From Beroe forskalii (Eukaryota; Ctenophora; Nuda; Beroida; Beroidae): DNA of 64,000 bases. The translations under genes and the position numbers were made by a program. Each line of letters begins with the position of its first letter. Position 1 is the first letter of the stretch. The notes below the pieces were generated by a model, which did not search any database, was not told the DNA's origin, and was given only the letters and a program-made list of their open reading frames with translations. Where the stretch lies: the NCBI GenBank assembly GCA_011033025.1, contig WFMF01000493.1:1-64000 (forward strand), written 5' to 3'. Below are positions 12,794 to 50,117 of the stretch, piece after piece.

Positions 12794-12802
12794 TATCCTC
12801 AA

Positions 12803-20700: not shown

Positions 20701-23700
20701 TTTATGTTAATAGATGATGACAGATCACAGCATGATTACCTAGTATGTAAGAACTGTGAATGTCTTCTTTGAACATATCAATGTCGTCTTCTTATGTTCA
20801 CTTTTGGTTTACTTTTGGTTTTAGAATATTTGAGTTCTCGGTTTCGGTCATCTTTATCATTTTACGTTTTCCGAAGTTGGTTTGGTTAAAAGTTTTGATC
20901 AGATATTTCATTATGTTTGCAATAGACTGTTTGCAATAGACTGTGTAAATTACATCCTCAGAATCCAATCTTCTTTTGAGGTTCTTTTGAAAGTATGGAG
21001 TTGGATGGTTCAAACGATTTACTTAGCGGCGACCTAACTTGTAGTGCCGACGCGTACACCTTTATAATCCACACTGGAAGCAATCATCCTGATGGAAAAG
21101 TTGCCAAGAAATGGAATGATGGAACGATGATACTCACAGTTAACCCTGGTAGTCCATCCCGCCAATCTGAAAACCTGAGGGTCACTGAGCTCTTTCCTTT
21201 CAATTCCGAAGGCTCCGTTTCGCGTGACTTCTGGCTACCCAAACATGTTGGAGTGCCCAAAGTTCTCAAAGTGGATCTAGAAAGCAATAAATTTGAAGTG
21301 ATTAAAGACGCATTATATGTGCGCGAGATTACAGTACTGGTAAAGGGTGAGATCTACAGATTCCCAATCAAGAACTATGTGTATCCACACAACCCGATCA
21401 GGGGGAATCCCACTGTAGCTGAAATGGGGTGCCCGCCACATTTCCTTGTACGGGAGGGGGCAGGCACTCTAAAGCACCAAGAGACTGAGCAGTTCATTCT
21501 CGATGCTAGAGAGGAAGATTTGGCAACTGTTAGAACCATGGTAAACTGGGCTGAACCGGAAAATGAACCGAAGTTCCTGTATCCAGGGTCCCTTAGTGAA
21601 ATGAACTATGATAATCTCCCAAGATTTCTTAAGTTCAAGGAAGCCCAATTCGAGGCAATGTTTGGAGCTGTGCTGATTGGTAGACGAAATTTGATGTATA
21701 CAATTTTAAAGAGAAAGTTCAAAAACTTCCTGTTTAGAATCACACCCGGATCTTTCAAGTCTCTAAAACACTACGCCCATTTCATGGTGAAAAAAGGTAC
21801 GCAGATCAAAGCAGCTAAAGATCAGATAACGGCAGCACTAGAAGTAGTCAAAGTTTTCCATACTGATGAAGAATTCGGGAGGCAGATGCTGTGTGCTTTC
21901 AGTCCAATGATGCTGAGAAAAGTAAATGAAGTAGGGGATCGCTGGAAGTCAGGGCTTCAAAACATCCCAGCATGGACCCTGGAAGGCAAGTCTCTGGAAA
22001 GCATCCTGGCAGAAGGCAAACTGTTCGAAGTGACTCATGATGGTCTGGAGGGGGTACCTCACGGGGGCTTCTTGAGTGAGAAGTTGACAGGACTCCAACA
22101 CACTTGGTACGTTACTTTGGCAGATGCTCTCTTTTATCAGACAGATAACCAAAAGCTGATACCAATACTGATAAGGCTGGAAAACAGAGTGGATGGTGAA
22201 GAAGCTACGTACTGGAATCCACCGGAACCTGGAACAGACGGTGAAGATCCTGATTATCTGGCCTGGCTGCTCGCCAAAATGTACTTCAAGTGTGCAAACC
22301 TAAACGTTTATAGCCTTAACTTGCACTTTGCAAGAGGCCATGCAATAAACGAGGTATTTGCTGTGTCGGCCTACAGGAACCTGCCTAACGCACATCCTTT
22401 GCTGAGGCTCCTCCAGCCTCACATCCAAGGCATTATCCCAGTGAATGTCCAGGCCCGGTCTGTCCTGGTGAATCCGGAACGGTGCGCCTTTGCTACGTTT
22501 CTGTCTGCTGGAGAGAGCTTACAAATGGTGCACGACACCTACTTCAAGAAGGTCACGTACCAGGACCTGCTAATCCCGCAGGATGTAGCTGAGAGAGGGG
22601 TAGAGGAAGTGGCGGGTTACTTCTACAGGGACGACGCTCTGGGGTACTGGAAGCTCCTCCACCAGTACTGCAGTGAGATGGTAGACCTGGCCTATCTCGG
22701 GGATCAGGATGTCCACAGAGACGAGGAACTGCAGAACTTTGCTAGAGAAGTAGCTCAATGTGGCTTCAGGGGATTCCCAAATAATGCAGGTTTTCCTAGT
22801 ACTATTCCAACTAAAGATGCTATCAAGGAGTACCTAACCGCAATCATATACAACATATCTGTATTTCACTGCGCTGTGAACTTCCAAACGTTCCAATATG
22901 CTGCATTTACCCCAAACTACCCGGGAATTATGAGAATGCCACCTCCGAAAAAAGGGGATATCGTCACAATGCAACGAATTCTGGATACCTTGCCATTGCC
23001 AGAAAATACTTTTGCATCAATTTATATCAGCGTTTCACTTGGCGGATTTTCTCCCATTGAAAGGTTTTATCTGGAAAGTCCCGGTCAAGACAGACTGGGT
23101 ATGTTGGGAGAAAATATGGCGGTTTCAGAAGAACAGGAGTCTTGTATAAAACGTTTGATAGAAGGAATGCGAGATTTGCATTTCAAGATAAAGGACCGAA
23201 ATGAGGGATTAAAGATAAAGTACACAGTTTTGGATCCAATGAATGTACCCATCACTACACAGGTGTAGGAAAAAATGGAACTGAGGAATTTGTCATTAGA
23301 AGTTCTTAGGGGGATCAAATGTATGGGAGAACCTTTTCTTTCATTGACTTTTGAAAAACTAGATTATACTCAGGAACCACGTTTAGACTTGAGATGACAA
23401 GCATGATGAATCTTTACAGTAGCAGTGATGAAAATCGTCATTTAGAGTTGACTTACTGAGCGATGTGTCCTGATTCTTTAAGAGGGGTCTGGGATGCTCT
23501 GGGATACTATAAACTACCTTCCTTCATTGAAAATGATGTTCTTAGCATTTCCAAAAACAGAGTTCTAAATAAGACTGTGCAAAACAAGGATCAGGTTGTT
23601 TGGAGATCTATTCAAAATGAAATCCCGAGACCGGTGTTATTGAAACAGTGGACACTGGGCCTTAGAATGTATTCATTCGTATGCAAGAGAATAACCCCTT

Positions 23701-26700
23701 CTACTTAATGTCTTAGCTATATCATGTTTCTCAGAGATGCCTTATGTTTTAGTATTCGTTTAGTTTTATTCCATTAGATGCTCAATCTTATGACTTCTTT
23801 CTTTGTTTATCATCATATTTTTATACGAAATACATATTAAACATATGGTTTCCAAACATATCAAGGAATATTGAAAAAATGGGGTTTCGAAAAGGAATCT
23901 AGCCAGTTTACCAAGTAAATACAAATATCTCGGGTCAGAGGGTGCTAGTAGGTATAGCATCCTAAATAAGATGCTTGGTAAAATCATACTGATCTGAATG
24001 TGGCCAAAACTTTTCAAGCACGATAAAACAACCAGAGGAAATGAAACTATTTCAGAAAATTGTGTTATTCCCAGATTTGGGACACCATTAATATCATAGA
24101 CAGTAGACACTGTTAATATCATAGATGACCTGGACTCCTTCAAAATCCACCTTGGGAGCTTCCTAAGACAATTTCCCGATCAGCCCCCAGTGACAGGATA
24201 CACTGCGCGGAACAGAAACAGTATTATAGATTGGACGAACCAATCCGGTGGCTCTCAGATGGATCAGCGGCCGTGTTAATCCCTACTACCTCCTTAAAAA
24301 GTAAAAGTGTATTTGACACAAGAAATTTGGCGAGTCTCACAAATCCTGTCTAATAAAGTAATAAAGTAGTCAGAGATGAATTAAAAACAATCAACATCTC
24401 ATTTTTCACAAAACTCTGACTTGATGTATTACAGACTTGTATCTACATGAAGCATTAGCGTCTCATAATTTGATCCGCAACATATCAATATATCTATAGC
24501 ATTTGTCGCTGAACTCGGTTCTGAACCTAACCTGGTGAACTCAGTGAATGTCCTTGCTGAACGGCATGTTAAGCAAGGAACTGAAGCTGAAAGGTGCCGT
24601 TCAGACCGAACTATTGTGCCAAATGTTGGTTTATATAAATCGTGTTTCTCAACACATACTCAAATTGATCCCCAGTCCCCCGAGTGTCGTGAGGGCGTGT
24701 TCCCTCAGAACAGCACCTCCTACATCTGGGGGACTGGCTGAATTTCTCACACGTGACACGTCTATCCCTCTTATATTAGTAGCAGTACAAGTTAATCCGT
24801 CTCAGAAGCTCTACTAACTTGATGTATCGCTCCTTGTACTTCTTCCTGACTCCATGCAGGTCGCGGAGTTGGCGTTCCAGGGTTTTCTGCTGCAGGTTTA
24901 TGTCGATTTCCTTGATGGAGATCACCAGCACGCTCTCCAGGTGACTCAGCTTGTTCTTACGGTTCACCAGCTCGAACCAGTCGTAGAGAGCGTCATCGTC
25001 AAACCCTTTACCGTTCTCTGGAATGGGGGGGGTTGAGAGTGGAGTAAAGGAGTGAAATAAACACTTCTACGTAGGTACAGAAGTAAAAGTAGGACTGAAA
25101 AGTCTTACTTTGAAAGTGCAAGCCGTGGATACATGATCCAATTATTGTGCAGAGACATATAAGTCCAGAAAAGAATCGAGGTGGTATCTGTACCTACATC
25201 ATATTTTAGTTTGGTGCTCAAGATTCAACATATCTAAGTTGAGACAATACATGTGTTGAATACAACCTTTCATTACTTATTAAATATTCTCAGTTAAACA
25301 CAATTTACTGAGTACTACATAATATTCGATGTTATAACTTTAATTTAAGTTTGAAGGTTTCTTACAACACCTGCTTGGAGTTTACACGATATTTGACGCG
25401 AATATGTAAATTCAATATTGAATTCTAAGAAATTATTTATTCTGCTTCCCGGGTTCAACGCACAATTCCATCTTTAGAATGGGCATTTGAATAAATTCTG
25501 CAGGTGTGACACTATCTTTTAAACGATATCTAAACAGTAAACTGGATCGATCGACCGGATCGGACCGACCGGCCAAGAAACTATTACAGACCGAGTGCGC
25601 CGCTCATTGAATGAAAATTTATAATTGAGGTTTTGCGCAAAGATACGGAGAGACATATTCCCGCGCCTTCCTGCAACAAAAAGTACACCGTTCCAGCATT
25701 TGAAGACTGCTGCGCGCACAATTTATTTCTAGCCCTTGGTAAAACAGTACCTTGATCTCTGAGCTTGAGCTCGAGTCCCTGGCCGCACAACTCCATCTGT
25801 TGCTGTTGGTGCTCGTTCTCGTTCATTTCCTCCATGTACATCTGCCTCTTGAGCAGAAGCATTTCCTCCTCTTCTCGCATTGCCTGCACATTGTTTTAAA
25901 GTGTTTAACATATACTCTGTTATCATTCCAACACAGCATGTGAACATTCCACAGACAAATTCATTGTCTTATCTATCGTCAAATTAGTTCTGTAATTCGG
26001 TCAATTCTAATTCCATGACTGTACAGTAAATACCCACACAATTTAATGATTTGCCTTATCAATGTCCTCGACTGAGCTGTAATCCAGTACATTACGCTTG
26101 CCTGAAACACGTTATTATTGTTTACATCATGTAGAGGAAGGTATGTAATGTCATATGAGTAATGATATGAGTAATACGATACGACATTTACGTCACACTC
26201 ACACTTTTACTTAAGATGAACTAAAAGCAGATACACAAGTCCGCACACATACATACAAACGCAAACACACGCAATATCCCGGCTTGTATTTGAGTCGAAG
26301 TGACTTTTAAAATGCACGTATTTAGTAGGGCAGTGAAGCAGTAAAAAATGAGTGAAGTGTGACGGTTATCATAACAAAGGTGTAATATTAAACTGAAAAT
26401 GTAGTGCCTAGGCTCCAGGATAACAATTTATTAAAATTGACTTGAAATTAACAAACGACCGTCTTCACAACCATTACCGACTGTTATTCAGTAACTTAAC
26501 TCACTGCGTTTCAAGATAGGAGAGAAGAATTTGTTGATTGGTGCGATGTCTTTCATGGATAGAAGGGATCTTCGTTTCCGCTGTGAGTTGTCCAGTTCTA
26601 GGGCGCTGGTAGGGTCACTGTTACCGCAAGAGAGAGACCGGGGTCTCGACTCTGAAATCAGGCGTTATTCCAAAAATCACTATTAACAATCATTTGAAGG

Positions 26701-29700
26701 TGCAAATTTTTTGGTTATTTCTATTGGGCATAATCATTCAAATTCAAAACAAAACATAATTTAGAAAGAACTAGTTAATGACGCGCGTAATGACGTATTC
26801 TGCAGCTTGTAAATCAAGTAATCCACACGCAGTCTCACCATCCTCGACTTCTGACTCGCTGGTAGAACTGAGTGGAGCCTGTCTGCCCTGACTGGACCGT
26901 CTAGAGTCCTCGTCCTCCGAGTACAGATCGGATTCCGTGTCGAAACTACCGGAGAGAGAGGGGTGTCAAAACAGGAGGGGAGTAGGAACAATCGATCAGC
27001 ATCGATAGAAGATAATATTGTTATTGAATTTAAATTATCCAATCATTTCGGGACTACTTCTTTGATGAAACTAATCTTAAAAACGGACTGGAAAATAAAC
27101 AGAACAGATCATGGCTTAGACAACATCGAATGTACACTGGCAAGTTAATCTGCCATCACATCAGCGCAAGGAAAAGAAATTAACTGGTGGGTTGTTTAGA
27201 AGTGTCGACGAGCGCAGGGATCACCCACAGGTAATGGACTTCTGACGACATTTCTTTAGTATGTAGAGAGGTTATTGGATTAGACCAGTAGTAGGAGCAG
27301 TAGTAGGTAGGTGTATGATATTACATGAGATAGTCAGACCTACCATACCCACCTAGTACCTACCACATTAGGTGTCAGAGTAGGTTGTTTAAATTTAATC
27401 AATACAACAGGACTACACCAGAATAAACCCCCGTGACGAAGCTAATCACAAGTTATTCGAAAGCTACTGATTACAACTCTCTCGCATAAGTTACATGGTT
27501 TAACCTTCAATCTCTTGTGTAGGTTGAAACTAATACAAACACTACCAGGCACCAGCCACCAGGACAAAAATCAACTGGAAAGCTGACTGAACTAACAGTT
27601 TTTGCAGGTAGTTTCGGCTAGTTGAAGATGAACAACCTGGACAGCATTTCACATAACCCACCTGACAATATGTCACATGACTCTCCTGACAACATGTCAC
27701 ATGACCCGCGGTACAACACTGACAACATACTATTATAACATGACAACACGACCCACCCGACAATACTGACATACGACCCACCCGACAACTTGACCCACCT
27801 GACGTGCATTCCCCCCTCGTCGCCCTCCTCCAGTGGAGACAGAGCTCTGTCCTCTTGCTCGTGTACTGCTGGAAGAGACCACAGCTCCTCAGGGTCTGTT
27901 ACTGGACACCCCAGAGCTTCCCTGTACTCCTCCGACCTGCACTCCTCCCGGACCTTGATCTTCCTGCGATTCAGGGATAGATTAGAAGAGGGAAATGAGG
28001 GATAGAACGAGTAGCTGTATTAATCAGCTGGTATCGCGGAATCTTAAAGCGTCAATAACTCCAGTTTCATCCGATTTCGCCACCATTTTGATAACGTGAC
28101 ACCATGCGTATTATAAAACTAAATAGAATTCTACAATTCCGGGACACCTCACGCCTTATATTATAATTACTGCTACAAAGCAGCTAGAGTAGCGTTCAGT
28201 ATTGAATATATATAACAAATCTGTAATTAACAGTGTTGTACAACTGCAATGAACTCTTGACGCATATGTACAATAGTAAAGCTTCGAGTAAACATGTAAA
28301 GGAAGTACGCAAAGAACAAGTTCATAGTCCAGGCGAAACCCGCAACAACTTGCCGAAATCTATCGGAGCACAGAATTGTTTAATTAAATACGCTGCAACA
28401 TATCCATGCTGATTACTCTGCAGGGCGGGGGCCGGGGGGCAGAGGGAGAAAACGATGGTAATCTCCGGGGGATAATTAAAACCGCCAGACTCTTCAAATA
28501 AGCACCAAGCACCCAGCACAAGCCACAACAGAGTTTGTGAAGTTATCAAATAAATTCGATTGTGTTCAATTGAACCTGTTTCTTGACACTTGAATTGTAA
28601 ATTTGGTTCGGAGATGATCTGGTATACTTTATAGACCCATTTATAATTTTCTCATGACAAGTCACAAGTAAACATAAGAAATCCAACCCCACTTGCTTAT
28701 TTGGCAGCCCCTTTTTGTAAATGAAATTTTGCAATTCATCATCCCGCCCCAGTAATTGGTTATCAGGCAGTTATGTGATCATGCAACCAGAAATTCGAAA
28801 TGCCTGATCAGTGATCTCGTTACATCTTTTACGTTTGTTATCATATAATAACCAGGGCGTTCAGGTGATTTTCTAAAACCTCATCTTGATAAATTTTGCT
28901 AAATAATAATATGTTTCAACTCCACTCATTAAAAGCAAAAAAGTAAGAATTAGTAAGTGGAACCAATGTGGAACCTATAAGAAACAGAGGATAGGAATAT
29001 TACGTCATATACCGCATAACACTTACTTTAACATGAGGTACAGTAATATGTACAGGTATAAACTAGGTCTGAGTGAGTGTGCGTCATTTAACCATATTAC
29101 AGCAATGTACTCCTTATTAAAATGAGCCGGAAACACTTCAAACGAGAATGCGTTCTAGAAGAGTAGAAGGATGAATGATAGTGAAACAGATCTTACTATC
29201 TTACATATATTATACGCTCACGACTGATAATATGCGCTTAAGAATGACGTAATAACTTTGATTTAGAATAGTGAGTTGATGATACTGAGTTGTTTATTTT
29301 CCGTACACGACAGGTATACGCTCACAAGTCATTTGATCTTTGAGTAGTGAAGGAGGGTGGAACGATGTAATATTATGTGTCTTGGTTAATGGTTCTAGCT
29401 TTGTGGAGAAGGGACCATTTCAACCGGTCTCAGACGGACCTATTATTCTTTATCATGTACGAGGTAAAAGTCAAATAAGGGACTCGAATACTCGAATCAT
29501 TGTTTTAAATTTGAAATACCTCCAGCTTGAAGGATTCAATAAAATAATTAAGCTTGAATCATGATTGATTATATTTACTAATCTAACTTGACTAGTACTT
29601 GATTTCATGTGATTACTAATTTGAAGTTGCGTTTGATTCTAGATTAATGCTTAATTTGACTATTTGACTAACTTACAGAAGTATTTCACCAACTTGAAAC

Positions 29701-32700
29701 AGGATTGACTAAGTTTAAGAGTTTAAGCAATATTTGACAAAATTTAAGCTGTATTTGACTAGCTTTAAGCAACAATTGAGTAACTTGAAGCAGGATTGAC
29801 TAACTTGGCGTTGTATTTTACTGCCTTGGCGTAGTATTCAAGTATTCAACTAACTTTAATCAAGAATTGACTATTTTGAAGCTTTATTTGACTAACTTGA
29901 AGCAGGATTTGACTAACTTTAAGCAAGAATTGACTAACTTGAAGCAGGATTGACTAACTTTAAGCAGGATTGACTAACTTGGCGTAGTATTTAACTAGAT
30001 TTCAGCAACAATTATAGACTAACTTGACGTTGTATTTTACTACCTTAAAGCAGGATTGACTAACTTGGAGGAGTATTGAAGTATATTAAGTATTCAAGCA
30101 ACAATTGACTAACTTGAAGCTGGATTGACTAACTTGGCGTAGTATTTGACTAACTTGAAGCAGGATTTGACTAACTTGAAGCAAGAATTGACTAACTTGA
30201 AGCAAGAATTGACTAACTTGAAGCAGGATTTGACTAGCTTTAAGCAAGAATTGACTAGCTTTAAACAAGAATTGACAAGCTTAAAGCAGGATTAACTACC
30301 TTGAAGCAAGAATTGACTAACTTGAAGCAGGACTTCACTAACTTGAAGCAGGATTTGACTAACTTGAAGCAGGATTTGCAGTAGCTTGAAGCAGGATTGA
30401 CTAACTTGAAGCAGGATTTGCAGTAGCTTGAAGCAGGATTGACTACCTTTAAGCAAGAGTTGACTAACTTGAAGCAGAATTGACTAACTTGAAGCAGGAT
30501 TTGCAGTAGCTTGAAGCAGGATTGACTACCTTTAAGCAAGAGTTGACTAACTTGAAGCAGAATTGACTAACTTGAAGCAGGATTTGCAGTAGCTTTAAGC
30601 AAGATTTGACTAACTTTAAGCAGGATTTGACTAACTTGAAGCAGGATTAACTAACTTGAAGCAGGATTTGACTAACTTGAAGCAGGATTAGACTAACTTG
30701 AAGCAGGATTTGACTAACTTGAAGCAGGATTAACTAACTTGAAGCAGGATTTGACAAACTTGAAGCAGGATTAGACTAACTTGAAGCAGGATTTGACTAA
30801 CTTGAAGCAGGATTAACTAACTTGAAGCAGGATTGACTAACTTGAAGCAGGATTAGACTAACTTGAAGCAGGATTTGCAGTAGAACATGCTGTCTCCGTG
30901 ATACACCTCGTACATTCCCAGTACCAGCTTTGTTCCACATCCGTTACACACGAAACACTGACGATGGAAGAGTCGTTGCCTAGCAACGGTGCGTTCCAAG
31001 AGGTACACGTGACTCCCACAGATAAAACACAGGTTGCCTCGGCTACTCCCGCCTTCTGTGGGGAGGGGTACATTGGTGAGTGGGGGAACCTGGGGTAAAG
31101 GGATGGATTGGTTAATGGGCCGGGGGGAAGGGGTAAAGAGGTTATGATATACGACGCAACGACGCTATGCTACCCACCACTTTTTTAGCCATTTTAAAGA
31201 CTAAAGAAAGAGTCAGAGAAAAGGAAAAAGGTTGGCCGATTGCTCTGCGAGAGGTTAGGTTATGGTAAGAGGGGGAATGAGAAGACCTTTTCTCACTACA
31301 GCAGCAGGAATACTGGATTTTGTAATAGTACCTAGTACTCCTGTATGTGATAAATACCTGTGATATGATTATTGCAATTTACATAAACACTGTACAGTTT
31401 CCTTTGTAGTACAGAGAATGATTCGAGTTTCCAGTGCCTATTAACTGCACACACAAACTAACACTTTCCCACTTTCCTGCACCACGGCTGGCACTAAAGA
31501 CTGTGAGAGGGAGAGTGAGCTATTAGCGTTCATCATCATCGGTTTATAACCACTTTAAGCTATGAAAATGACGAAACTTTTGAGTGCTTATTTTACGAGA
31601 ACGCGGCTATTAAATTGAGTAAAAGTAAAACACAGGTACTTAATAGCTGCTAGCCGGCCTAAGGCTCTTGCAGTTTCAAGGAAGTCTAGATGTTATCAAC
31701 TGTAAATTGCAAAGTGTTGCGTAGGAATGTGCTGAGGCGAGGGAATTTAGTGGGAGCGAAACCTTTAGAATTGTCATGAACAATACACGCATACCCTATT
31801 GTATTAACCTGCGTCACCGTGCCCTTAACAGTATCAAGTGCTACAAGATTACGTCAGTTCTCCATATACTTCCTGTTTCCTTCCCAGTTTGAAAGCTGTC
31901 ACAATTCACAAACTTGAAAATCATTTCAACTAAGTCACTGCAATGAACAACACAGATATTAAATGTATACAGAACTATTGCCCGTACCTACAGATAGTGT
32001 CTTATATCAAATACCTGGATCATATGCTCTCGTCATTATCTTTCCCACATCTTGTTCGCTGTAAATCACATTGCGGTTGTTTGGCTTCTTCCTGCATTTC
32101 GTGTCCTGTTCCGTCCCATCTTCTTCGCCCTGGTGGGGTGGACCCCTCTTCTCAGACTCGCCCTGGTGAGGTAGACCCCTCTTCTCAGACTCGCCCTGGT
32201 GAGGTAGACCCCTCTTCTCACTCTCCCCTGCTGTCTGTCTGTCCGCTGTCTGTCCCCCTCTTCCTCTGCTCTCATCCACTGATGGGCGCCGGGGGTTCTT
32301 CTTCTCTTCCGAGGTCTGGCGCCGGGTCACCTTACTCTCTCCAGTGTGTCGCCGATAAGTCACCGCCCTCTCAGTCGGGTCGGGGGATTTGTGTCGATAT
32401 GGCGCACTCTCAGGGGACTTAGTACGCCGATGAGGGACTTCAGGCGACTTGGTCCGATGTAGGGAGTACTCAGGGGACTTGGTCCGATGTAGGGAGTACT
32501 CAGGGGACTTGGGTCTGTGAGGGACGGGATCAGGGGATTTGTTTCTGTGAGGGACGGGGTCGGGACGGGAGATGGGCTCTGGAGAGGGGATGCGGCGAGT
32601 GGGGGCGTCAGGGGAGGATATGACTCTAGTCCCGGCGTCGGGGGACGATATCCGGTAGGGGGACTTGTTGCCGGCCGAGCAGCGTCGAGGAGTCCGAACA

Positions 32701-35700: not shown

Positions 35701-38700
35701 TCTACAGTGAGCGGACAAAAGACCCCCGGACAGATTAAAGACCCGGCAGGGTCAATAAGGTTAGGTTAAGGGTCAATGTTAGTGTTGGGGCTTGGGTTTT
35801 GTTAGGGTTATTAGGGGGCTTCTGTCAGGGAATAACTTCCTACATTGCAAACCATAAAATAGATAACTCTCTAATCTCTCCACTACTCAACTACTCTCTT
35901 CCTCAGAGATTGAGGCGTGAGAATTACACCCCACCAGATGACCAGATCGTTTATTATTTGAAACACCTCTCGTGATTCATACAATGTATACCAATATGAA
36001 GATATTAGCTGTTTTCATTGTGCACAGTGCACAGTAAATGATGTACATACGACCACTGACCACTGTGTAATGTTAGAACCTTAATAAAACAGACCATTTT
36101 ACTCAACTAACAAGACAAAACTAGTCCCTGCTAACCTTTGTAAATCAAGAACTGGCAGTACACTGCACAATGTGCACTTCATGCATTATACCGCGGATAT
36201 CGCTAGCGGCGTATTGGAGCAACTCTCGTCTCTCGCAGTAGAGTGATCAGTGAACGCACAACAGGACAAACTAACAGAACTCTTTACACTGCACAATGTA
36301 AACTGTATATTAATTGTACATTGTTCATTTTACACTGTACAATGTAAACTGTACATTGTACACTGTACATTTTACACTGTACATTGAACACTGTACATTG
36401 TATACTGTACATTGTACATGGTAGAGTGTAGCAATGTACTTCATACACCATCACACACCCTTCGTTCAGACATTCACACTCCTCTGAACCAGCAGCATTA
36501 CATCATGATGCTCACTCATGCATCGCCTAGTCTAGCATAATGAGTGACAGATCGCAGAAACACAGGTAGTCATGACGTCATCGTGACGTCACCACTAATA
36601 AACCTGCTAAATCGAGGAGTGCACATGCACGCCAAGTTAAAACATTATTACTTCATTATACAGGTGTAACATGTTACACGGGATAATTCTATTATCATCA
36701 AATTACACGAGTCAGTTTACATCGTAATTATTATGAAAATTAACATACACCAACCGGGTGATTATGATTCAGCATAACTTCTGAGCATGGGTCTTGGCAC
36801 AAGACGGTCATTATCTTATCTGCTCCCCAATTGTGTGAGAATATTTCGGCATGCACCAAGATAAAAGATGGCAGGCCGATGTTTTGTGAGGCAACTGAAG
36901 ACCTAAATTCTCGACACCAGGGACATATCAGTTTCATGTATCAATTTGCTCAACATTTCACAACGTGACATTTGAGCAACGGAAGTAAGTTAGAACAACT
37001 ACATAATATTAGTAATATTAGATTGGATTGCATAATATATGCAAAGTGAAGAACAAAATGTGTCCAGTACACATAGTTACATTCTCAATAAATCTCATAT
37101 CCTCGATAAAAGATAAAACCGGCAATAAACTTGTTTTTTTTCTTCAGAAGTATCTTGTGAAAAGTTTTTCAGGCAACTACCAATATTCAGGGGGATTTCA
37201 AAGAAGCTTAGGTCGCTTGATGCTTTGATGCTATGCGCCCAATCGTTGTCTGACACCACTTTGTCACCAGTGTCAAAGATCAAACCCTCGTCACTGACAC
37301 CACTTGTCTCATTTCACTTGTCTCATTTCACTTGAGATTGCAGTTCATCAATTTATGCTCTTCTATGGAAGTCAGTCACGATTGTCTTTCATTTTTGCAC
37401 GAATTTTAGTCTTGGAAAGATGCAATAGTACTACTAAAACAGTGTTTTATCCTCATTTAAATTTTAAAAGGCACCAAAACTGGAATTTGAACTCAGTAAG
37501 TCTGTCTATGACCTCTGTTTATAAATTTACAACAATAATAGGTACTCTTTCCTTCTTTTGGCTGGACTGCTAGAATATCAGGATAAAGTTGCTCTCCTAA
37601 GACGATCTTCCAACACATCTCTTCTAAAGACTTTCATCTCTCATTGCAATATGACCCTCGTCATGACTAAAACCATTCTATGCAACATTGCAATATGATC
37701 CTCGTCATGACTAGATCCATTGTATGCAATCACCTAATGAGGGTGATAATGAGGTACTGGTGATGGGGGGACATTGCTTCGTCACCTGATCTCCGACTTG
37801 CTGGGTCATGTAACTCGTCAATGCTTGGTAATACGACTCACTTACGGTTGTATATATACCATGGCCCCACCAACCAAGTATCACTTCTATCATCGTTTAC
37901 TAATCTGACAACTTCTTCGCTATGAGATTGACCCTTCAACCATCATCTCCTTCCCTCGACACTTCCTCCAGACTGCAGAAGAACAGACCTCCCCCTCTCA
38001 ACCTTGGGATGCTGTCCTCCACTCCCAACAGAAGGGTCCTGCCTCTGGTCTGTGACAAGCCCCCTCCTCCTCCCCCCACTGAAAGGAGAAGAACCCTCCC
38101 AACTCCCCCCACTCTACCTCGTCTCTGTGACATACCCCTACCTCCTCCTCCCCCTCCTCCTCACTCTCAGCTCACCAAGGACTCCTCCTCTGGACGCATC
38201 AGGAAACCCTCCACTTCTCAATCCCAACCACAGGACCAGACATCCCTCAAGCCAGAAAGCCCCACCAACAATCAGAGACCGGGGAAACGCACCTCCCCCG
38301 ACTCCCCTCCACAGTCAGATACCCCCACTCTTGCTGCAAAACGACAGCGCTTCCTGTCCTGTATCATCCAGGAGACCTTCCACAGTATACACTCTCCAGA
38401 CATCCAGTCTCCAGGGATCCCTACCCCACTCCCTCCCTCTCCAGTCATCTCTCCCATCTTCCCACCCTCTCCTGCTCGGAAGAAGACTGCTCCTACCAAC
38501 CCACCTCCCCCTCCTATAATCCGGATGAGAACCAGCTTCACCTACTCACAGATCGAGATACTGGAGACTACCTTCTCAGCTCAGCAACAGATCTCCAGAC
38601 TACATGCAGCTCAGATAGCCTCTCAGTTCGAGTTGCCTCTGGAATGCATCACGTCCTGGTTCTCCAACAGAAGGCACTTGGAGAGGAAGAGGGAGAGAAG

Positions 38701-41700
38701 GAGGAGGGCTACTTTGCAGCAGAGGACCAAGTCGGCCAGCAGAACAGCCAGCAGGAGTGGGGAGGCACACACTGTATGATCTGACACATACTGTATGATC
38801 TGTGTTTTCAAGACATTGTTTTTAAGAATACTGTATCAGTTAATCAGGGATAGTTTTGTTTATTTAATGATATTGAATTATTAGCTTCGGTAATTAATTA
38901 TAGTTGGGTATTTAAGACTTATATTATTGCGTTATATTTTGATATATTCAATTTATTAAACATGCCAATATTTCGTGCATGATCTGTGTTTTCGAGAATA
39001 CTGCATTAGTTTAACAGGGATAGTTTTTTATTCAATGATAGCGAATTATTAGCTTTGGTATTTACTTATTTATTAAGATTTATGGTGCATATACGATTGA
39101 TAATATTGCATCTTATTATGATAAAGTTTCGACTAATCTATTGGTGCAAATTATCATTTAGCTTCCAATTTTTCGTAAATGATGAAACAAACAAAAAATC
39201 ATCCCAATATTATGTCACTCAACATGGTACAACTGTACAAGTGCAGACCACATTCTGTAAGATGTACCGCATTTAACAATATAGCACATACACTATCACT
39301 TCTAACATCAGAGCAACATTCCACTGGTAGATGGCCTTACATCATCAATTCCCAACACTGGATCAAGTTATTTGTAATACGCGGTGGGCAAAGACATATA
39401 CACAGACATAGGTTTAACAAGTCAACTAGGGGCTCTTGACAAGCTTATAGTAACTAATAGCCCATACACTGAGCAACATAACCAAGAGCTAGGTGCTAGT
39501 GACTAGCTGCCAGACTTGTCAATAGCCAGCTGCCCCTGCAATTACAGAGAGAGACAGCAATGACCGATGGTTTATCAGTTGCCTTGAATCACCAACAATG
39601 TACATGCATATTGCATAAATCTCTGAGCTCTAAAGTTCCACCATAATGAATGTATACATAAATGATTATTAAACACTAAGCAGGTGTCCGCTGATCCAGC
39701 CTAATAATGACATAGAGTGATCGAGAGCGAAGTTTGTTTCTAGGGGTAGGGGTCAGGTGGACAGAGCAATGTCTTAACTGGGTTAGTTTCTAGGGGTTGG
39801 GGTGAGGTGGACAGAGCAATGTAGTACCTGGGCTTGTTTTTAGGGGTAGGGGGTGAGGTTGACAGAGAAATGTTTTTACCTGGGTTTGTTTCTAGGGGTA
39901 GGGGTGAGGTGCACAGAGCAATGTCTTACCTGGGTTTGTTTCTAGGGGTAGGGGGTGAGGTGGACAGAGCAAAGTCGTCCACAGAGAGGGAGGGTTCGTG
40001 GATGCTGTTGATCATGTCCTCTAACTCTTGTCTTGTCTTCTCCTCGTTTATACGGTGCGGTGCCATCTTGAACCCGTTACTAGGAGAACATACATGTCAC
40101 TGGGGGAATTGGAGGTTAATAACCATTGCTTATATTCGAACAGTGAGGGTGCCTACCAGACTAGGGGTTGTTGACTAATGACTACATTCAACTCAACCAT
40201 AGTCTTCATTGAGATACAAAAATGGAAAACATATTAATGCTTCATTCACTCAGTTTGGTTTTTATTCAAAAAGGTGACTGAACAAATAAATACGGCCAAG
40301 GAACACCTAATGAAATAGATGAGTGTCAACATTATACTAAATCAATTAACGATTCGTCGCACGAAAATAATATCATGTTTTTAAATAAAAATCAAAGGCC
40401 GCATCCAAACACAACGAGAGAAACTGTCAAAGAATAAGTCCTAAAATACTTGATACGACAGTCTATAATGTCATCTGACATATTATTATGCGTTGACCGT
40501 ATACTCTGTATTTTATTCCATGATGTAATCCTTACAAGAGAACACTTCAAGATGTGTTAGCAGCTACGAATCATGCAAAGAACCATGACATCTGAGTGCA
40601 ATTTGGTGTTCTAGTTGGAAGAAATACTACATTTTGTAATTTAGTGAATTTGTTTTCCCTTTGACTTTATCAGCTATCCCCGGCAATTATTTCCGGTTTA
40701 ATGCTATTATTAGTTAGGATATACGACAGTGCACGACGCACGTGTGGTGTGTGAACTTATGAAGGAACAAGGAGTAGACATTACAAAACGTCACCAATTC
40801 ATCGTTGTGAATCAATGCCATGACATCACTCTCGCCCTGCTGCTTTCCTTGCAAGACATGTGCAATGTGTGATATTTTGATGATTTATTTAAATGTGACT
40901 TCATTCAGTGATGAAGCGAGAGAATAATGGGCTAATGTCAAGGCGTTGCCTTATTAGGACACAACACTTGGGCAGACTTCAGTAATTATTGTATCAACGT
41001 ATTCACTTAGATGTAAATTTGAAGTGTACATTGTACAAATCATGGTAATGTGTCAGTGTGAAGGACGAAAGTACATCTAAAATCTACATTGATACTGATA
41101 TACTAATATAAACCATTCTAAATCGCGGTACATGCAAATGATGCAATATGGACCGTGATCTACTACAACAGCGACACATGCCCCCTACATCTGACACCAA
41201 CCTGTTACTCTGTTTCTTGTCGATGGCAGAGAGGCTCGTTCTCTGGACCCTCTCCTCCCCTCCTCCTTTGTTTTCTGATGACGTCACTCTCTCCTCGCTC
41301 TGCCCTGCTCCGGCTGATGACGTCATAGCAGCCTCCTGCTCGCCTTCATCTGCTAATATAACACAATAAGATAATTAATCATCATGCATTGTCACGAATA
41401 TCGGCAATTTTCATCATTCCAACCCCTAAAACCGAAAGATATGTCACTTTCCGGACACTGAATGAGACATAAAAACGTAATTACAAAAAACCATGAACTA
41501 ATTATTAATTCCAAAATGCAAATGGCGACCATTTTGCCCATTTCTTCTTTTAAATGTGGGATCAAATTAGGCTTGGCGGATGGGTCAAGTTCCGTGCACT
41601 TCCAGACTTCTTTTTCAGTGACACTTCAGAAAGAAAAGAGTTCCCAGCTCTCAGAAAGTCCAGGGTTAATTGTAATCCACGATCATGAGCAAGAGGAAAC

Positions 41701-47700: not shown

Positions 47701-50117
47701 ATTTCAGCGACGGTCTTGATTTTGCTTCGACCAGATTCGTTTGAAAAATTCGAGAAATTGAGTTGAAATACTTAAGAGGCGAATATTCTATTTGCTCAGG
47801 TCGTCTGGCTTCTGGGGGCTGCCAACCCCAGACCCCTGCATATCATTGAATTTCAGTGACGGTCTTGATTTTGCTTCGAAAAGATTCGTTTAGAAAATAC
47901 GGGAAATTGAGTTGAAATGCTAAAGAGGCGACTATTCTATTTGCTCAGGTCGTCTGGCTTCTGGGGGCTGCCGCCCCCAGGCCCCTGCATATCATTGAAT
48001 TTCGGTGACGGACTTTATTTTGCTTCGACCAGATACCTAACCTGTCAGTTTTTTTTCATGCGCATATTTCATTTCTATTTTCTTGTCTGAAAAGTACTCC
48101 AGCCCCAATTTTCTTCATCTAACTTTGGTCAGCATTCCCCGGCCCCGGCCCCGGCCCCGGCTAAATTGATGCTTCCCCGGCCCCGGTCCCGGCCAAATTT
48201 CTCAATTCTTCCCCGGCCCCGGCCCCGGCCTGAATCGCCATCCCCCGCCCCGGCCCCGGCCCCGGTTGAGATCCCGCCCCCGGTCGACCACTGACTATAA
48301 TGCACTTTTGCGTCAATATATTATGTTCAAATATTATATGAAGAAATTTAACATATTATCATGTAAATACATTGACTGAAATATTTCTGTTTCAAAGGGT
48401 GCTGAGAGTTTGCAATCGAGGAGGCATGGTTTATAAATTAGCTTGGGTAACAACGTATATTGTCACACAGATTAATAATGAAAAATAAAATCTTATACAG
48501 GGTGTCAGAGGGTTATTTCTCAGTGTTCCATGGTAATTTTTTGATCAAAAAATCACATTAAAAGTTATCATTGAAGAATTTGATATTCTAATTTAAATTA
48601 TAATAAATTGAGTGTATTGCATTGTGCCAAGAAATACAGTATTTCATTAGAGTGGGTATGAACATGGGTATGCTACATATTGTACTGGTATTGTACTAGT
48701 ATGTAAACACTAAACAGTGGCAGAGAGTAGCACTACAGTATTTTATCAACGAAAACTGGGAGGCAATTTGTGGCGAACTTTTAGTCCTTGCATATAAAAA
48801 TAGGTACCTAAAGAGATGTCATTGAGATGGATCATGTACCAATGACCATATATGGTGTGTTGTTATTCACTGCAATAGGCAGTGCATTAAACCTGTCAGC
48901 AATGAGTTGTTGTCTGCAGGAGGAGGTAGTGGGGGTTCTGGCAGGTGAGCTTTGTGGGGTGGTAGAGCTGTTCGTCATTCGGTCTACTGAGCTGGTATAT
49001 TCAATACTACTGCTGCTCCAGCTCTGTCCTCCATTCTTCTTAGGGCAGATCAGATAAATAGATGAAAAACACATCAGAGTCTTGGAGGAATTTGATTTTA
49101 ATGATAATTTCATGATGGATGTAAAAATATCTTGCCATATACCTGATGCTAATCAATATGTTACCTTGGCTAGAGGCCGTGGTGGGGGTGCAGGTTTTAG
49201 CATAGCATACTGTGTAGGATTGTGAAGCCTGTATCTGGGCGGGGAGCCCTGGTAGCCTCTGTAACTTAGCATGTCATCAGACCCTTCTTTACTTTGCTCC
49301 TATAAGGCAATACATGATAACATTCTTTGAATAGAACCTAAATACCTCAATTTTTAGGCATCATATACAATATACTAATGTTATATGGTCAATGAACTTT
49401 GATCCAATAATATTCAAACAAAAATATTTACTGAAATTGATTTTATTGGGTCTTCAAGTTGTTACTTTTCTTAATTCAAACCTCAAATGGGATTTTATCT
49501 TTGAAGTGGTGGTAGTACTGAGAGAGATAAGTTATAACACTTAGTCTGTCTGGTACATGCATTTCAACCATGTCCTCAGCTTCTAGAAGGGCTGGGATTC
49601 CTAATGAATTTTCTGCCACAGTGAAAGCAAGTCTGTTATTCTCCAACATGTTTTCAGGATTGAGTGTGTAAAAGTCACTGAAAGTTAAATGGGTTAAATG
49701 ATCTAGATGAGCCTATTCTCATTTAATCTGATCCATTCAAAGGGAATGGGGTTGATTTTCCAGTTTTTGTTTCTCATAGAGGAGAATGCCAGCTACCATT
49801 AGGTTTGGACCCCATGAAAAATATCATTCTAGGCCAAAGTTATGAATTCTTGAAATTGCAGGTTTGCCTGTAATGATATTTCCAATGTGATTTACCAAAT
49901 TAAGCAAGAACCTTGTAAGCAACCACAAGCAATGCATGATCCTTAAAACTCCTAATACTTACATAAGATCAGGGTGGAATCTGTGAATGATAGCACAGAA
50001 TGCAAGTCCATTCCTGAAGCTGTTTGTCAAATCATTTATGTTCACTCCAGGGTATGAGGCACATTGCCTAGCACACCAATTCTGGAGGGCTCTCAAGGAA
50101 GATGTCTGACTTGACAT
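17610..50117 (-). CDS. MICALL: MICAL-like protein gene, 16 coding exons (CH - linker - LIM - bMERB)
   Basis: Exons, in transcript order: 49963-50117, 49482-49677, 49165-49299, 48893-49038, 45228-45541, 41202-41352, 39930-40079, 32015-32736, 30863-31055, 27799-27963, 26839-26945, 26505-26651, 26055-26101, 25751-25883, 24819-25017, 17610-17763. They total 3114 nt, so 1037 residues, with every phase matching. An in-frame TAA precedes the ATG directly. Domains: calponin-homology about 7-112, a long low-complexity linker 118-656, one LIM zinc finger 666-719, and a C-terminal coiled-coil bMERB domain from about 870 to the end. Known MICAL-like proteins link Rab GTPases, EH-domain proteins and actin in endosome recycling and junction traffic; that role is inferred. 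In mammals CH and LIM are close together and the long linker follows LIM; here the linker lies between them. There is no monooxygenase domain, so it is not a full MICAL. The gene hosts two antisense single-exon genes in introns 7 and 15. Confidence 0.88.
17790..17955. repeat. AACTAGTCGGTACAT-type degenerate repeats at intron end
   Basis: Five or so diverged copies of CTAACTAGTCGGTACAT and TCCGGTGCATGTCC just upstream (minus strand) of the exon 16 acceptor. Confidence 0.65.
17960..20990. other. Intron 15 sequence without recognised gene
   Basis: Non-coding in appearance. Contains a short run of TCATGGTAACAT repeats near 18850-18900. The 92-codon ORF at 19288 shows no family feature. Confidence 0.5.
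20995..23268 (+). CDS. Lipoxygenase (single exon, PLAT + catalytic domain)
   Basis: 757 residues in one exon. An in-frame TGA lies six codons before the ATG, fixing the start. An N-terminal PLAT/C2-like beta-barrel (about 18-130) begins [10 protein letters not shown]. The catalytic helical domain has the metal-ligand pattern of non-haem iron lipoxygenases: H444 and H449 in [10 protein letters not shown]625 and N629 in VFHCAVNF, plus the C-terminal carboxylate of V757. Supporting family blocks are [16 protein letters not shown] and [13 protein letters not shown]. The enzyme should add oxygen to polyunsaturated fatty acids to give hydroperoxides; regiochemistry and stereochemistry cannot be read with confidence. 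The last residue is Val where nearly all animal and plant enzymes have Ile. There is no N-terminal haem (allene oxide synthase) domain and no signal peptide. It lies antisense within intron 15 of the MICAL-like gene. Confidence 0.95.
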   Translation: MELDGSNDLLSGDLTCSADAYTFIIHTGSNHPDGKVAKKWNDGTMILTVNPGSPSRQSENLRVTELFPFNSEGSVSRDFWLPKHVGVPKVLKVDLESNKFEVIKDALYVREITVLVKGEIYRFPIKNYVYPHNPIRGNPTVAEMGCPPHFLVREGAGTLKHQETEQFILDAREEDLATVRTMVNWAEPENEPKFLYPGSLSEMNYDNLPRFLKFKEAQFEAMFGAVLIGRRNLMYTILKRKFKNFLFRITPGSFKSLKHYAHFMVKKGTQIKAAKDQITAALEVVKVFHTDEEFGRQMLCAFSPMMLRKVNEVGDRWKSGLQNIPAWTLEGKSLESILAEGKLFEVTHDGLEGVPHGGFLSEKLTGLQHTWYVTLADALFYQTDNQKLIPILIRLENRVDGEEATYWNPPEPGTDGEDPDYLAWLLAKMYFKCANLNVYSLNLHFARGHAINEVFAVSAYRNLPNAHPLLRLLQPHIQGIIPVNVQARSVLVNPERCAFATFLSAGESLQMVHDTYFKKVTYQDLLIPQDVAERGVEEVAGYFYRDDALGYWKLLHQYCSEMVDLAYLGDQDVHRDEELQNFAREVAQCGFRGFPNNAGFPSTIPTKDAIKEYLTAIIYNISVFHCAVNFQTFQYAAFTPNYPGIMRMPPPKKGDIVTMQRILDTLPLPENTFASIYISVSLGGFSPIERFYLESPGQDRLGMLGENMAVSEEQESCIKRLIEGMRDLHFKIKDRNEGLKIKYTVLDPMNVPITTQV
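23269..23899. other. 3' flank of the lipoxygenase gene
   Basis: No supported gene. An 81-codon plus-strand ORF at 23463-23708 has no recognisable family and ordinary AT-rich composition; probably 3' UTR or chance. Confidence 0.45.
23900..24290 (+). pseudogene. Degraded LINE 3' coding remnant
   Basis: Plus-strand readings give [20 protein letters not shown] with CVIPRFGTP after it, then, after a break, [20 protein letters not shown]. These follow the order of the C-terminal end of many non-LTR retrotransposon proteins (a TRGN segment, then a conserved Phe/Gly stretch, then an LxxFKxxL-xxFL helix). Frame breaks are present. No 5' part is seen. Moderate confidence only. Confidence 0.45.
24819..25017 (-). 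CDS. MICALL: MICAL-like exon 15 (bMERB coiled coil, part 2)
   Basis: Contains [20 protein letters not shown], the DLMxxWFxLVNEKNxL-type block conserved in MICAL family C-termini. Donor ATCAA|GTTAGT, phase 2. Without splicing the frame runs to a TAA at 24776, giving an alternative tail [13 protein letters not shown]. Confidence 0.92.
25751..25883 (-). CDS. MICALL: MICAL-like exon 14 (bMERB coiled coil, part 1)
   Basis: Encodes [20 protein letters not shown] and on to [14 protein letters not shown], the first helix of the bMERB Rab-binding domain. Acceptor TGTGCAG, donor GTACTG, phase 1. Confidence 0.9.
26055..26101 (-). CDS. MICALL: MICAL-like exon 13 (47 nt, apparent GC donor)
   Basis: Encodes [15 protein letters not shown]. 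The acceptor TTTCAG is good. The only in-frame donor preserving the acidic lead into the coiled coil is AAG|GCAAAT, a GC-AG type intron. An internal GTACTG would also keep frame but drop 12 residues. Confidence 0.68.
26505..26651 (-). CDS. MICALL: MICAL-like exon 12 (basic segment)
   Basis: Encodes a basic stretch [20 protein letters not shown] immediately before the bMERB coiled coil. Acceptor ATTTCAG; donor GTGAGT, phase 1. Confidence 0.8.
26839..26945 (-). CDS. MICALL: MICAL-like exon 11 (acidic Ser-rich)
   Basis: Encodes [20 protein letters not shown] and on to [10 protein letters not shown]. Acceptor CCGGTAG, donor GTGAGA. Confidence 0.83.
27610..27798 (-). repeat. Degenerate repeats of the exon 10 splice donor
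   Basis: On the minus strand the intron after exon 10 reads CAG|GTGGGTCAAGTTGTC, then TTGTCGGGTGGGTC, TTGTCGGGTGGGTC, TTGTCAGGAGAGTC and TTGTCAGGTGGGTT, separated by ATG-rich spacers. The repeated core GTCaGGTGGGT contains the exon 10 donor. Confidence 0.65.
27799..27963 (-). CDS. MICALL: MICAL-like exon 10
   Basis: Encodes [20 protein letters not shown], then [20 protein letters not shown], a charged post-LIM linker. Acceptor AATCGCAG; donor CAG|GTGGGT, phase 2. Degenerate copies of the donor word follow in the intron. Confidence 0.83.
28006..29570. other. Intron 9 sequence without recognised gene
   Basis: AT-rich, no coding signal; short ORFs lack family features. Confidence 0.5.
29660..30880 (-). 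repeat. ~21-bp minisatellite derived from the LIM exon 3' end and its splice donor
   Basis: About 50 units of the plus-strand form GGATTTGACTAACTTGAAGCA, decaying toward the left (29580-29800). On the minus strand a unit reads TGCTTCAA|GTTAGTCAAATCC, which is the end of exon 9 plus its GT donor. Several units (near 30367, 30416, 30495, 30577) instead contain GGATTTGCAGTAG, which also matches exon 9 further upstream (codons for YCKS). The array therefore overlaps the exon border at 30863. Confidence 0.92.
30863..31055 (-). CDS. MICALL: MICAL-like exon 9 (complete LIM domain)
   Basis: Zinc ligands are C666, C669, H687, C690, C693, C696, C716 and C719, spaced C-x2-C-x17-H-x2-C-x2-C-x2-C-x19-C-x2-C, which fits the LIM consensus. 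The last ligands lie in YCKSCFK, whose codons run into the donor TTCAA|GTTAGT. That exon end is reiterated in the adjoining 1.2-kb intronic array. Confidence 0.93.
32015..32736 (-). CDS. MICALL: MICAL-like exon 8 (large low-complexity exon with in-frame minisatellites)
   Basis: 722 nt, 240 residues, Pro/Ser/Arg-rich. It contains two coding minisatellites: [10 protein letters not shown]-type repeats (about six KSP copies) and three GESEKRG(L/P)PHQ copies. Many SP and KSP sites suggest phosphorylation by proline-directed kinases (inference). Acceptor CTCCTCAG; donor G|GTATTT, phase 1. The only very large exon of the gene. Confidence 0.85.
32127..32227 (-). repeat. In-frame 33-bp coding minisatellite in exon 8
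   Basis: Three near-identical copies of GAGTCTGAGAAGAGGGGTCT-type units on the minus strand encode [11 protein letters not shown] twice and [11 protein letters not shown] once. Confidence 0.9.
32385..32560 (-). repeat. In-frame ~30-bp coding minisatellite in exon 8
   Basis: Units around AAGTCCCCTGAGTACTCCCT repeat on the minus strand, encoding [10 protein letters not shown] and diverged relatives ([30 protein letters not shown]). Confidence 0.88.
33000..36280. other. Intron 7 (distal part), no recognised gene
   Basis: AT-rich, with many short TGTACA/TGTACAT words. ORFs up to about 80 codons look accidental. Confidence 0.5.
35755..35822. repeat. Degenerate TTAGGG-like tract (2)
   Basis: AAGGTTAGGTTAAGGGTCAA, then GTTAGTGTTGGGG and TTTTGTTAGGGTTATTAGGG. 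Flanked by GACCCCCGGACAG-type sequence on the left and a C/G-rich CTGTCAGGG on the right. Confidence 0.65.
36280..36425. repeat. Self-complementary TGTACATTGTACAC repeats
   Basis: About ten overlapping copies of ACACTGTACATTGTA and TTTACACTGTACA. The core TGTACA is palindromic, so the tract can pair with itself. Similar words occur at 33690-33770. Confidence 0.8.
37640..37727. repeat. 44-bp tandem duplication upstream of the homeobox gene
   Basis: CATTGCAATATGACCCTCGT is followed by CATGACTAAAACCATTCTAT and repeats once with few changes (CATTGCAATATGATCCTCGT). Confidence 0.8.
37851..37858 (+). promoter_or_regulatory. TATA-box-like element for the homeobox gene
   Basis: TATATATA lies 63 nt before the ATG at 37922. 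With a usual ~30-nt spacing, transcription would start near 37885, giving a short leader of about 35-40 nt and no room for an extra intron. Confidence 0.45.
37922..38779 (+). CDS. Proline-rich homeodomain transcription factor (PRD-like, Ser50)
   Basis: 285 residues in one exon with an in-frame TAA seven codons upstream. The N-terminal 198 residues are proline/serine-rich (runs of 7-8 Pro) with a repeated (V/L)CD(K/I)P-proline motif at 43-50 and 68-80. A 60-residue homeodomain without gaps spans 199-258: R5, F8, L16, F20, W48, F49, N51 and R53 are all present, with WFSNRR in the recognition helix. Position 50 is serine, as in Pax/paired homeodomains, and [13 protein letters not shown] resembles the paired class; no paired domain is visible. 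The tail is very basic. DNA-binding regulator, nuclear; target unknown. No introns; it sits antisense within intron 7 of the MICAL-like gene. Family placement beyond PRD-like is uncertain. Confidence 0.9.
   Translation: MRLTLQPSSPSLDTSSRLQKNRPPPLNLGMLSSTPNRRVLPLVCDKPPPPPPTERRRTLPTPPTLPRLCDIPLPPPPPPPHSQLTKDSSSGRIRKPSTSQSQPQDQTSLKPESPTNNQRPGKRTSPDSPPQSDTPTLAAKRQRFLSCIIQETFHSIHSPDIQSPGIPTPLPPSPVISPIFPPSPARKKTAPTNPPPPPIIRMRTSFTYSQIEILETTFSAQQQISRLHAAQIASQFELPLECITSWFSNRRHLERKRERRRRATLQQRTKSASRTASRSGEAHTV
38788..39130. repeat. Imperfect tandem duplication in the homeobox 3' flank
   Basis: TGATCTGTGTTTTCAAGA...GAATACTGTATCAGTTAAT recurs ~190 bp later as TGATCTGTGTTTTCGAGA...ATACTGCATTAGTTTAAC, with AGGGATAGTTTT and GAATTATTAGCTT shared downstream. 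The two copies have diverged clearly. Confidence 0.75.
39736..39990 (-). repeat. ~50-bp tandem array of the exon 7 end and its splice donor
   Basis: Five units: the first is the real exon 7 end, four lie in the intron. Minus-strand unit core: CCTACCCCTAGAAACAAACC followed by CAG|GTAAG. Donor versions in order are GTAAG, GTAAA, GTACT and TTAAG (the fourth has lost GT), then a partial unit. Each unit also has a pyrimidine-rich CCCCTACCCCTAG acceptor-like word 12 nt before the donor. Confidence 0.9.
39930..40079 (-). CDS. MICALL: MICAL-like exon 7
   Basis: Encodes [20 protein letters not shown], then [20 protein letters not shown] and [10 protein letters not shown]. Acceptor CTCCTAG, donor GTAAG. 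The last ~50 nt and the donor are repeated four more times downstream in the intron (39736-39929), so the true 3' border could vary. Confidence 0.83.
41202..41352 (-). CDS. MICALL: MICAL-like exon 6 (acidic linker)
   Basis: Encodes [20 protein letters not shown] and on to [12 protein letters not shown]. Acceptor ATATTAG, donor GTTGGT, phases 1 in and 2 out. Confidence 0.8.
42152..43653. mobile_element. ~1.5-kb inverted-repeat element, TA-flanked
   Basis: The left end TAGGGTAAAACGGGGTGAAG is mirrored by the right end, whose reverse complement reads TAGGGTAAAACGGGGTGGAG. The interior has many GTGGGACA words in the left half and their complements (TGTCCCACTTTACCCC) in the right half, so much of the element can fold back. 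The terminal TA may be a Tc1/mariner-type target duplication. No transposase seen. Confidence 0.8.
45228..45541 (-). CDS. MICALL: MICAL-like exon 5 (proline/arginine-rich linker)
   Basis: Contains [20 protein letters not shown] and [19 protein letters not shown]. Acceptor CCCTAG, donor GTAAGT, phase 1 out. Intron 4 upstream holds two MITE-like insertions (45689-46333 and 46695-48293). Confidence 0.85.
45689..46333. mobile_element. 645-bp MITE with ~55-bp inverted ends and TTAA target
   Basis: The ends are G11-TTCACCCCTCACATTTTGG and its inverted copy ending in C10. Arms match for over 50 bp, through GAATTTGAGATATGAGT. TTAA flanks both sides (45685-45688 and 46334-46337), a piggyBac-type target. 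No transposase, so non-autonomous. Lies in intron 4 of the MICAL-like gene. Confidence 0.88.
46695..48293. mobile_element. Complete GGGGCC-ended hAT-like element (copy B)
   Basis: Inverted ends CAGTGGTCGACCGGGG and its complement at 48278-48293. Near both ends lie (GGCCCC)n-like blocks. The flanks ACTATATA and ACTATAAT agree at six of eight positions, consistent with an aged 8-bp duplication, and CAGTG fits hAT termini. The middle carries about five ~150-bp tandem units, each with a CTGGGGGC/GCCCCCAG hairpin. A minus-strand ORF (46851-47364 region, two frames) is conserved with copy A but unrecognised. Confidence 0.85.
48893..49038 (-). CDS. MICALL: MICAL-like exon 4 (Ser/Thr-rich linker)
   Basis: Begins [20 protein letters not shown]. 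Donor GTTTAA is weak (phase 2) but joins in frame to exon 5; acceptor CCCTAAG. Confidence 0.78.
49165..49299 (-). CDS. MICALL: MICAL-like exon 3 (linker)
   Basis: Encodes 45 residues with an aromatic/proline-rich stretch ending [11 protein letters not shown], a possible SH3-type ligand. Acceptor CTTATAG, donor GTAACA; symmetrical phase 0. Confidence 0.85.
49482..49677 (-). CDS. MICALL: MICAL-like exon 2 (CH domain, C-terminal half)
   Basis: Contains [20 protein letters not shown] followed by [20 protein letters not shown], the conserved second half of the MICAL/MICAL-like CH fold. Acceptor TTTCAG; donor GTTTGA; ends in phase 0. Confidence 0.95.
49963..50117 (-). CDS. MICALL: MICAL-like exon 1 (CH domain, N-terminal half)
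   Basis: Starts [18 protein letters not shown] and ends in the CH signature [16 protein letters not shown]. The codon before ATG is TAA, fixing the start. Donor GTAAGT after phase 2. Confidence 0.93.

Follow-up and report, generated by a model that had tools for sequence, protein, structure and literature searches.

The border of a LIM-domain exon is repeated many times over in the intron that follows it, and we consider the resulting array to be a 'mirage'-type boundary minisatellite that is passive, with splicing at the first donor and the other donor words normally ignored (probability roughly 0.8). Mirages, known from the lancelet Adh3 and globin genes (PMC3087553), are exon-intron boundaries duplicated in tandem in the manner of a minisatellite. 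Under this reading a segment made up of the final approximately 15 bases of the LIM exon and the initial approximately 6 bases of the intron would have been duplicated in tandem. Unequal exchange or slippage would then have enlarged the array by one to four units at a time, chiefly next to the exon. Older units would have been displaced from the exon and would then have decayed, and the remaining donor words, as passive by-products, would normally be disregarded by the cell. By analogy with the lancelet mirages, splicing of the gene is expected to be normal.

The gene and its LIM exon

The window, that is the whole stretch of DNA analyzed, is 64,000 nucleotides long. CH, LIM, and bMERB domains are ordered along its minus strand, presumably within a single transcript, and judged by this domain order the gene is MICAL-like. 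The order CH-LIM-bMERB is typical of MICAL-like (MICALL) genes. All exons given here are on the minus strand. The CH-domain exons lie at 49482..50117 (Pfam CH, E 7.3e-11 and 1.3e-11), a span that consists of two stop-to-stop frames and extends into flanking non-coding sequence. The LIM-domain exon lies at 30863..31055 (Pfam LIM, E 5.7e-8) and the bMERB-domain exon at 24776..25066 (Pfam PF12130, E 2.5e-9; stop-to-stop frame). Nothing convincing was found for an FAD monooxygenase domain upstream when minus-strand frames of at least 35 residues were scanned for motifs of that domain.

The exon borders of the gene were deduced from phase together with Pfam and PDB matches, and 12 donors were picked by hand, some of them possibly wrongly. 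The LIM exon is the 8th of the hand-called exons. Its PDB matches include MICAL1 (E 2.2e-13) and CRP1 (E 6.1e-13). With the acceptor CCACAG/AAGG and the donor CAA/GTTAGT (the slash marks the splice junction) it would be 193 nt long, entered in phase 1 and left in phase 2, and on the minus strand its terminus reads CTACTGCAAATCCTGCTTCAA/GTTAGT. The intron that holds the array is placed by its sequence at 27964..30862 (minus strand, 2,899 nt, phase 2), and the following exon at 27799..27963 fits the LIM exon in phase, giving an in-frame join over the 2,899-nt intron. On phase only, the splice would use the first donor, at 30862.

Elsewhere in the window we observed a lipoxygenase, whose top PDB matches were an allene oxide synthase-lipoxygenase, which we take to be that of a coral, and an arachidonate 5-lipoxygenase, presumably the human one. 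A tropomyosin-like ORF in the window gave no match in a PDB search, and an Rfam search gave no match reaching the gathering threshold.

Structure, decay, and origin of the array

The array (29673..30862, minus strand) begins at the inferred splice junction and extends approximately 1.2 kb into the intron. Its unit, GTTAGTCAAATCCTGCTTCAA, corresponds to about 15 terminal exon bases and about 6 initial intron bases, is mostly 20-22 bp long, contains the donor word CAA/GTTAGT and is repeated about 50 times. At 29849-30877 TRF reported a 21-bp unit present in 49 copies (score 1162), with a higher-order period of 83 bp. A 17-nt unit pattern allowing up to three mismatches was matched 39 times, compared to 0.29 matches expected, and all 39 matches in the 64 kb were found inside the array, at 29689-30874. 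The expansion of a LIM exon border into an array of about 1.2 kb, which had been proposed in a first-pass annotation of this DNA, was thereby borne out. The exact 21-mer had no match in the viral_contigs or genome_contigs collections, both of which are non-animal and uninformative on the host genome.

Segmentation gave 56 units. The statistics were computed on the 49 units of 18-23 bases, and the 7 longer units were omitted. Close to the exon the units follow a four-unit (83-bp) higher-order pattern. The first 12 units form four-unit blocks (CTAAT, CAA(A)T, TTAAT, CAAAT), and one block occurs twice, as units 14-17 and as units 18-21. Over the first 26 units the resemblance was greatest at a lag of four (1.41 edits, compared to 2.22-3.05 for the seven other lags tested).

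Identity to the consensus, measured in steps of 100 nt from the junction, was 0.97, 0.97, 0.93, 0.91, 0.90, 0.88, 0.90, and 0.78 for the first eight steps and 0.79, 0.89, 0.73, 0.76, 0.67, 0.55, 0.53, and 0.61 for steps 9-16, with a shuffled intron giving 0.56. It thus stayed at 0.97 up to 200 nt from the junction, lay at 0.88-0.93 over the following 500 nt and at 0.73-0.89 between 700 and 1200 nt, and was 0.53-0.67 beyond. The drop is uneven, and background is reached about 1.3 kb from the exon, near 29560, through a degenerate tail at 29560..29672 (minus strand). Window position and edit distance were correlated accordingly (Spearman -0.454, p 0.001; 49 of the 56 units). Since identity falls with distance from the junction, the exon-side end of the array would thus be the younger or the more recently homogenised one.

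The best downstream match of the junction extends over 28 of 28 bases. Four long units, starting at 30593, 30510, 30427, and 30385, have GCTACTGCAAATCC where ordinary units have GTTAGTCAAATCC, and match exonic sequence. These units of the long GGATTTGCAGTAG version (minus strand; 30364..30385, an exact exon copy over CTACTGCAAATCCTGCTTCAA, and likewise 30406-30427, 30489-30510, and 30572-30593) are each identical to the exon in 21 of the 21 bases of CTACTGCAAATCCTGCTTCAA, all of them purely exonic, in agreement with an earlier remark that units with the longer version resemble the exon upstream. This match suggests that the array took up bases of the exon on at least one occasion. The YCKSC at the end of the exon is also present at the corresponding place in CRP1 and is thus encoded by ordinary LIM codons, which makes copying from exon to array the likely direction. 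Together with the start of the array at the junction and the exonic bases in the long units, this makes the exon end the likely source of the array, as the first-pass annotation had suggested, judged from one sequence only.

The opposite order of events would be that an older intronic repeat came first and that one of its units was converted into the exon, leaving the exon with repeat-derived last codons. As the exon end equals the near units, identity alone gives no direction. In the far units, moreover, the intron-derived bases TTAGT are kept at 0.89-0.96, compared to 0.54-0.61 for several exon-derived bases, and this better retention would also fit an older intronic repeat. However, FYC is shared here with MICAL1 and YCKSC with CRP1, and the long units hold exon bases that are absent from ordinary units; we therefore regard an array-first origin as unlikely. 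That the array is a general satellite of the genome which landed beside the exon by chance is extremely improbable. Copies may exist beyond the 64-kb window, but every one of the unit matches within it falls in the array, and chance would have to account for 21 bases that match LIM codons exactly.

A second boundary array was found in the same gene. At 39929, CCAG/GTAAGACA and about 40 bases of the exon recur at a spacing of 50 bp. This array (39732..39976, minus strand) has a 50-bp unit made up of the exon end and the donor CCAG/GTAAGACA, in 4.8 copies including the exon copy, and its likely source is the exon at 39930..40066 (minus strand), for which the upper end given is an in-frame ATG. 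Downstream copies spanning the junction exceeded all 500 resampled controls at two of the 12 hand-called donors, with a score of 28 for the LIM-exon donor (null maximum 20) and 31 for the donor at 39929 (null maximum 17). Only these two had copies with at most 6 mismatches in 22 within 3 kb. The donors at 45227 (P 0.008), 49164 (P 0.010, low complexity), and 27798 (P 0.056) were suggestive of boundary copies and failed correction for 12 tests, and the seven remaining donors gave P values of 0.062 to 0.948. With two clear cases among the 12 hand-called donors of one gene, the genome may make such junction arrays often.

Donor words, U1 pairing, and reading frame

At up to three mismatches to CTTCAAGTTAGT, 57 donor-like words were found in 29400-31100 and 55 in 29600-31100. 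The donor position holds GT in 40 of the 57 words, GC in 9 and other dinucleotides in 8. The word reads CAAGTTAGT, exactly CAA/GTTAGT, in 31 of them, the real donor included. The earlier remark on potential donors is supported to the extent that many words in the repeats equal the real one. The GT at the donor position is not specially preserved. Its T is retained at 0.78 in the units near the exon and at 0.67 in the distant ones, below most columns, several of which stay at about 1.0. Selection preserving the donors found no support, the T of GT being among the less conserved columns. As conservation gives no sign of donor retention, the repeats are most likely passive, and the first site is probably fixed by exon context.

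At the first junction an in-frame TAA is located two codons past the split codon. Use of any of 98 of the 99 later GTs in the array, or of any of the 30 downstream words identical to the real donor, would retain an in-frame stop. Since the TAA is retained, a simple donor shift adds no zinc-binding repeats from the array, and the partial zinc-binding repeats that had been envisaged are excluded for the present sequence. The frame encoding a repeated peptide does exist as a stretch of the array, but it is severed from the exon by the same TAA.

Donors were ranked by the energy of pairing with the U1 5' end alone. The real LIM-exon donor paired at -1.7 kcal/mol and was the weakest of the 12 hand-called donors, the other 11 ranging from -5.0 to -11.4 kcal/mol. 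Within the array 46 of the 99 later GTs paired at least as strongly as the real donor, as did 109 of 203 later GTs of an intron slice that stops 24 bases short of the intron end. The best paired array sites, 30529, 30446, 30299, and 30043, reached -6.3 to -7.5 kcal/mol. U1 pairing scores were a check put forward with the first-pass annotation. Because so many later GTs pair as strongly as the real donor, U1 pairing alone cannot specify the splice site, and it is not obvious how the first donor wins despite its weak pairing.

With a weak true donor ahead of 30 identical later words, in a gene that has a second donor array, the LIM-exon array might instead be a regulated or copy-number-dependent splicing element, its repeats recruiting U1 for the exon or steering part of the transcripts towards a product that lacks the bMERB domain, which we consider improbable. 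In one form of this idea the internal donors compete with the first and keep the stop after SCFKLV, so that the array acts as an off switch tuned by copy number, leading to mRNA decay or to a protein without the bMERB domain. The identity of 31 donor words (the real one counted), the stop kept at nearly all later array GTs (98 of 99) and the weakness of the real donor beside 30529, 30446, 30299, and 30043 agree with such a switch. Selection for donors would however be expected to keep GT better than other positions, which it is not, with 17 of the 57 words lacking it, and the lancelet mirage genes are reported as splicing normally (PMC3087553 and PMC3902484); there is little likelihood that the array is an off switch. 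In another form the downstream donor-like words would recruit U1, help to define the exon and rescue a weak true donor. The true donor is indeed the weakest by U1 pairing, and in human PAH a natural donor can be used more when U1 binds downstream of it (PMC5933811). The words nevertheless show no sign of conservation, and in most of the repeats U1 pairing is no better than at the true donor, making this rescue very unlikely.

The weak first donor, the retention of TTAGT in far units and the uniform exon edge, which differs from that of lancelet BflGb6, count against reading the array as a passive mirage.

The array offers a natural test of splice-site choice, with 31 identical nine-base donors of which the first is the coding one and is weak. 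Should splicing be confined to the first, the choice would be made by position and exon context and not by the donor word.

Relation to known boundary arrays

The first-pass annotation knew of no described case of an exon end amplified in this way. The lancelet mirages are such a precedent (PMC3087553 and PMC3902484). Apart from Adh3 and the globins, mirages have been described in lancelet TnC and, in imperfect form, PGBD5 (PMC3902484). Their units measure 10-72 or 150-160 bp, splice signals are present in many but not all of them, and regular splicing is reported (PMC3087553 and PMC3902484). Of the features of a mirage, the LIM-exon array was found to have a unit of minisatellite length, a unit spanning the putative boundary, and GT in 40 of the 57 words.

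The LIM-exon array resembles the lancelet mirages in having tandem units over the exon-intron border and duplicated splice sites, many but not all of which are intact. In BflGb9 it is likewise the 3' exon boundary that is duplicated, and the 10-72 bp of the Adh3 units bracket the 21 bp found here. BflGb6 has 3-6 copies, compared to about 50 in the LIM-exon array, and the edges of its array escape homogenisation, whereas in the LIM-exon array uniformity is highest at the exon edge. The higher-order blocks and the degenerate far end of the LIM-exon array would fit concerted evolution inside the cluster with its edges left out, as in BflGb6, but the uniform exon side would not. Two clear arrays within one MICAL-like gene are also unlike the lancelet cases. 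Human minisatellites are known for polar mutation, in which turnover takes place mostly at one end. Turnover in the LIM-exon array would be one-ended in the same manner, with the coding splice junction as the uniform end.

Outside lancelets, no long boundary array was recognised among the literature matches listed, which is weak evidence of absence; the exceptions were short repeats at boundaries of duplicated human genes (PMC2812944) and boundary duplications discussed in connection with intron gain (PMC4974935). In human segmental duplications boundary minisatellites have also expanded and junction-spanning arrays are proposed as a source of new introns, but the units are about 30 bp, repeated about four times on average and found in paralogues, compared to one long intronic array here (PMC2812944). 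In the potato RdRp gene a boundary duplication likewise supplies spare splice signals, and there the tandem duplication created a new intron, of which none is shown at the LIM-exon array (PMC4974935). Earthworm metallothionein genes have intronic minisatellites, for which the excerpt of PMC12783039 describes no boundary duplication. If the host is not a lancelet, mirages would arise in other animal lineages too. The LIM-exon array belongs to a known kind, of which it is a long, clean case.

Exon-end repeats of the MICAL-like gene

A second exon-end array of the MICAL-like gene, the minus-strand gene with CH, LIM and bMERB exons, was found at 39732-39976 (minus strand) and is built of 50-bp units. 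These units contain exon-like bases; most of them carry a CCAG|GT donor, and an acceptor-like CCCCTACCCCTAG is present in several. Repeats were also found after two further exons of the gene, at 45227-45170, where GTGCMGCGAACWGGTA is repeated once, and at 27798-27630, where GTCAGGTGGGT is repeated (both minus strand). These are possibly small or decayed boundary duplications, i.e., tandem copies spanning an exon end and the start of the intron. In the junction-copy test of the hand-called donors neither candidate was significant after correction for 12 tests.

The exon preceding the LIM exon carries in-frame coding repeats of two peptide types (32125-32558, minus strand).

Other tandem repeats

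A large tandem array with a 52-bp unit occupies the window edge (1-1456), with about 24 copies from position 181. Tandem repeats of about 148 bp were found at 8835-9320 and 47378-48028 (plus strand), and since their consensus is nearly identical at the two sites, a dispersed element is suggested.

Other genes and open frames

In the gene model used here, exons of the MICAL-like gene flank a homeodomain gene on the opposite strand, which is a single open frame (37904-38779, plus strand). Matches to aminotransferase class V were found in two frames at 58522-59750 (plus strand). A short, divergent tropomyosin-like open reading frame (12365-12814, minus strand) had a Pfam score below the cut-off and no match in a PDB search. 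The lipoxygenase at 20980-23268 (plus strand) is a single open frame of 762 codons, with allene oxide synthase-lipoxygenase and arachidonate 5-lipoxygenase as top PDB matches.
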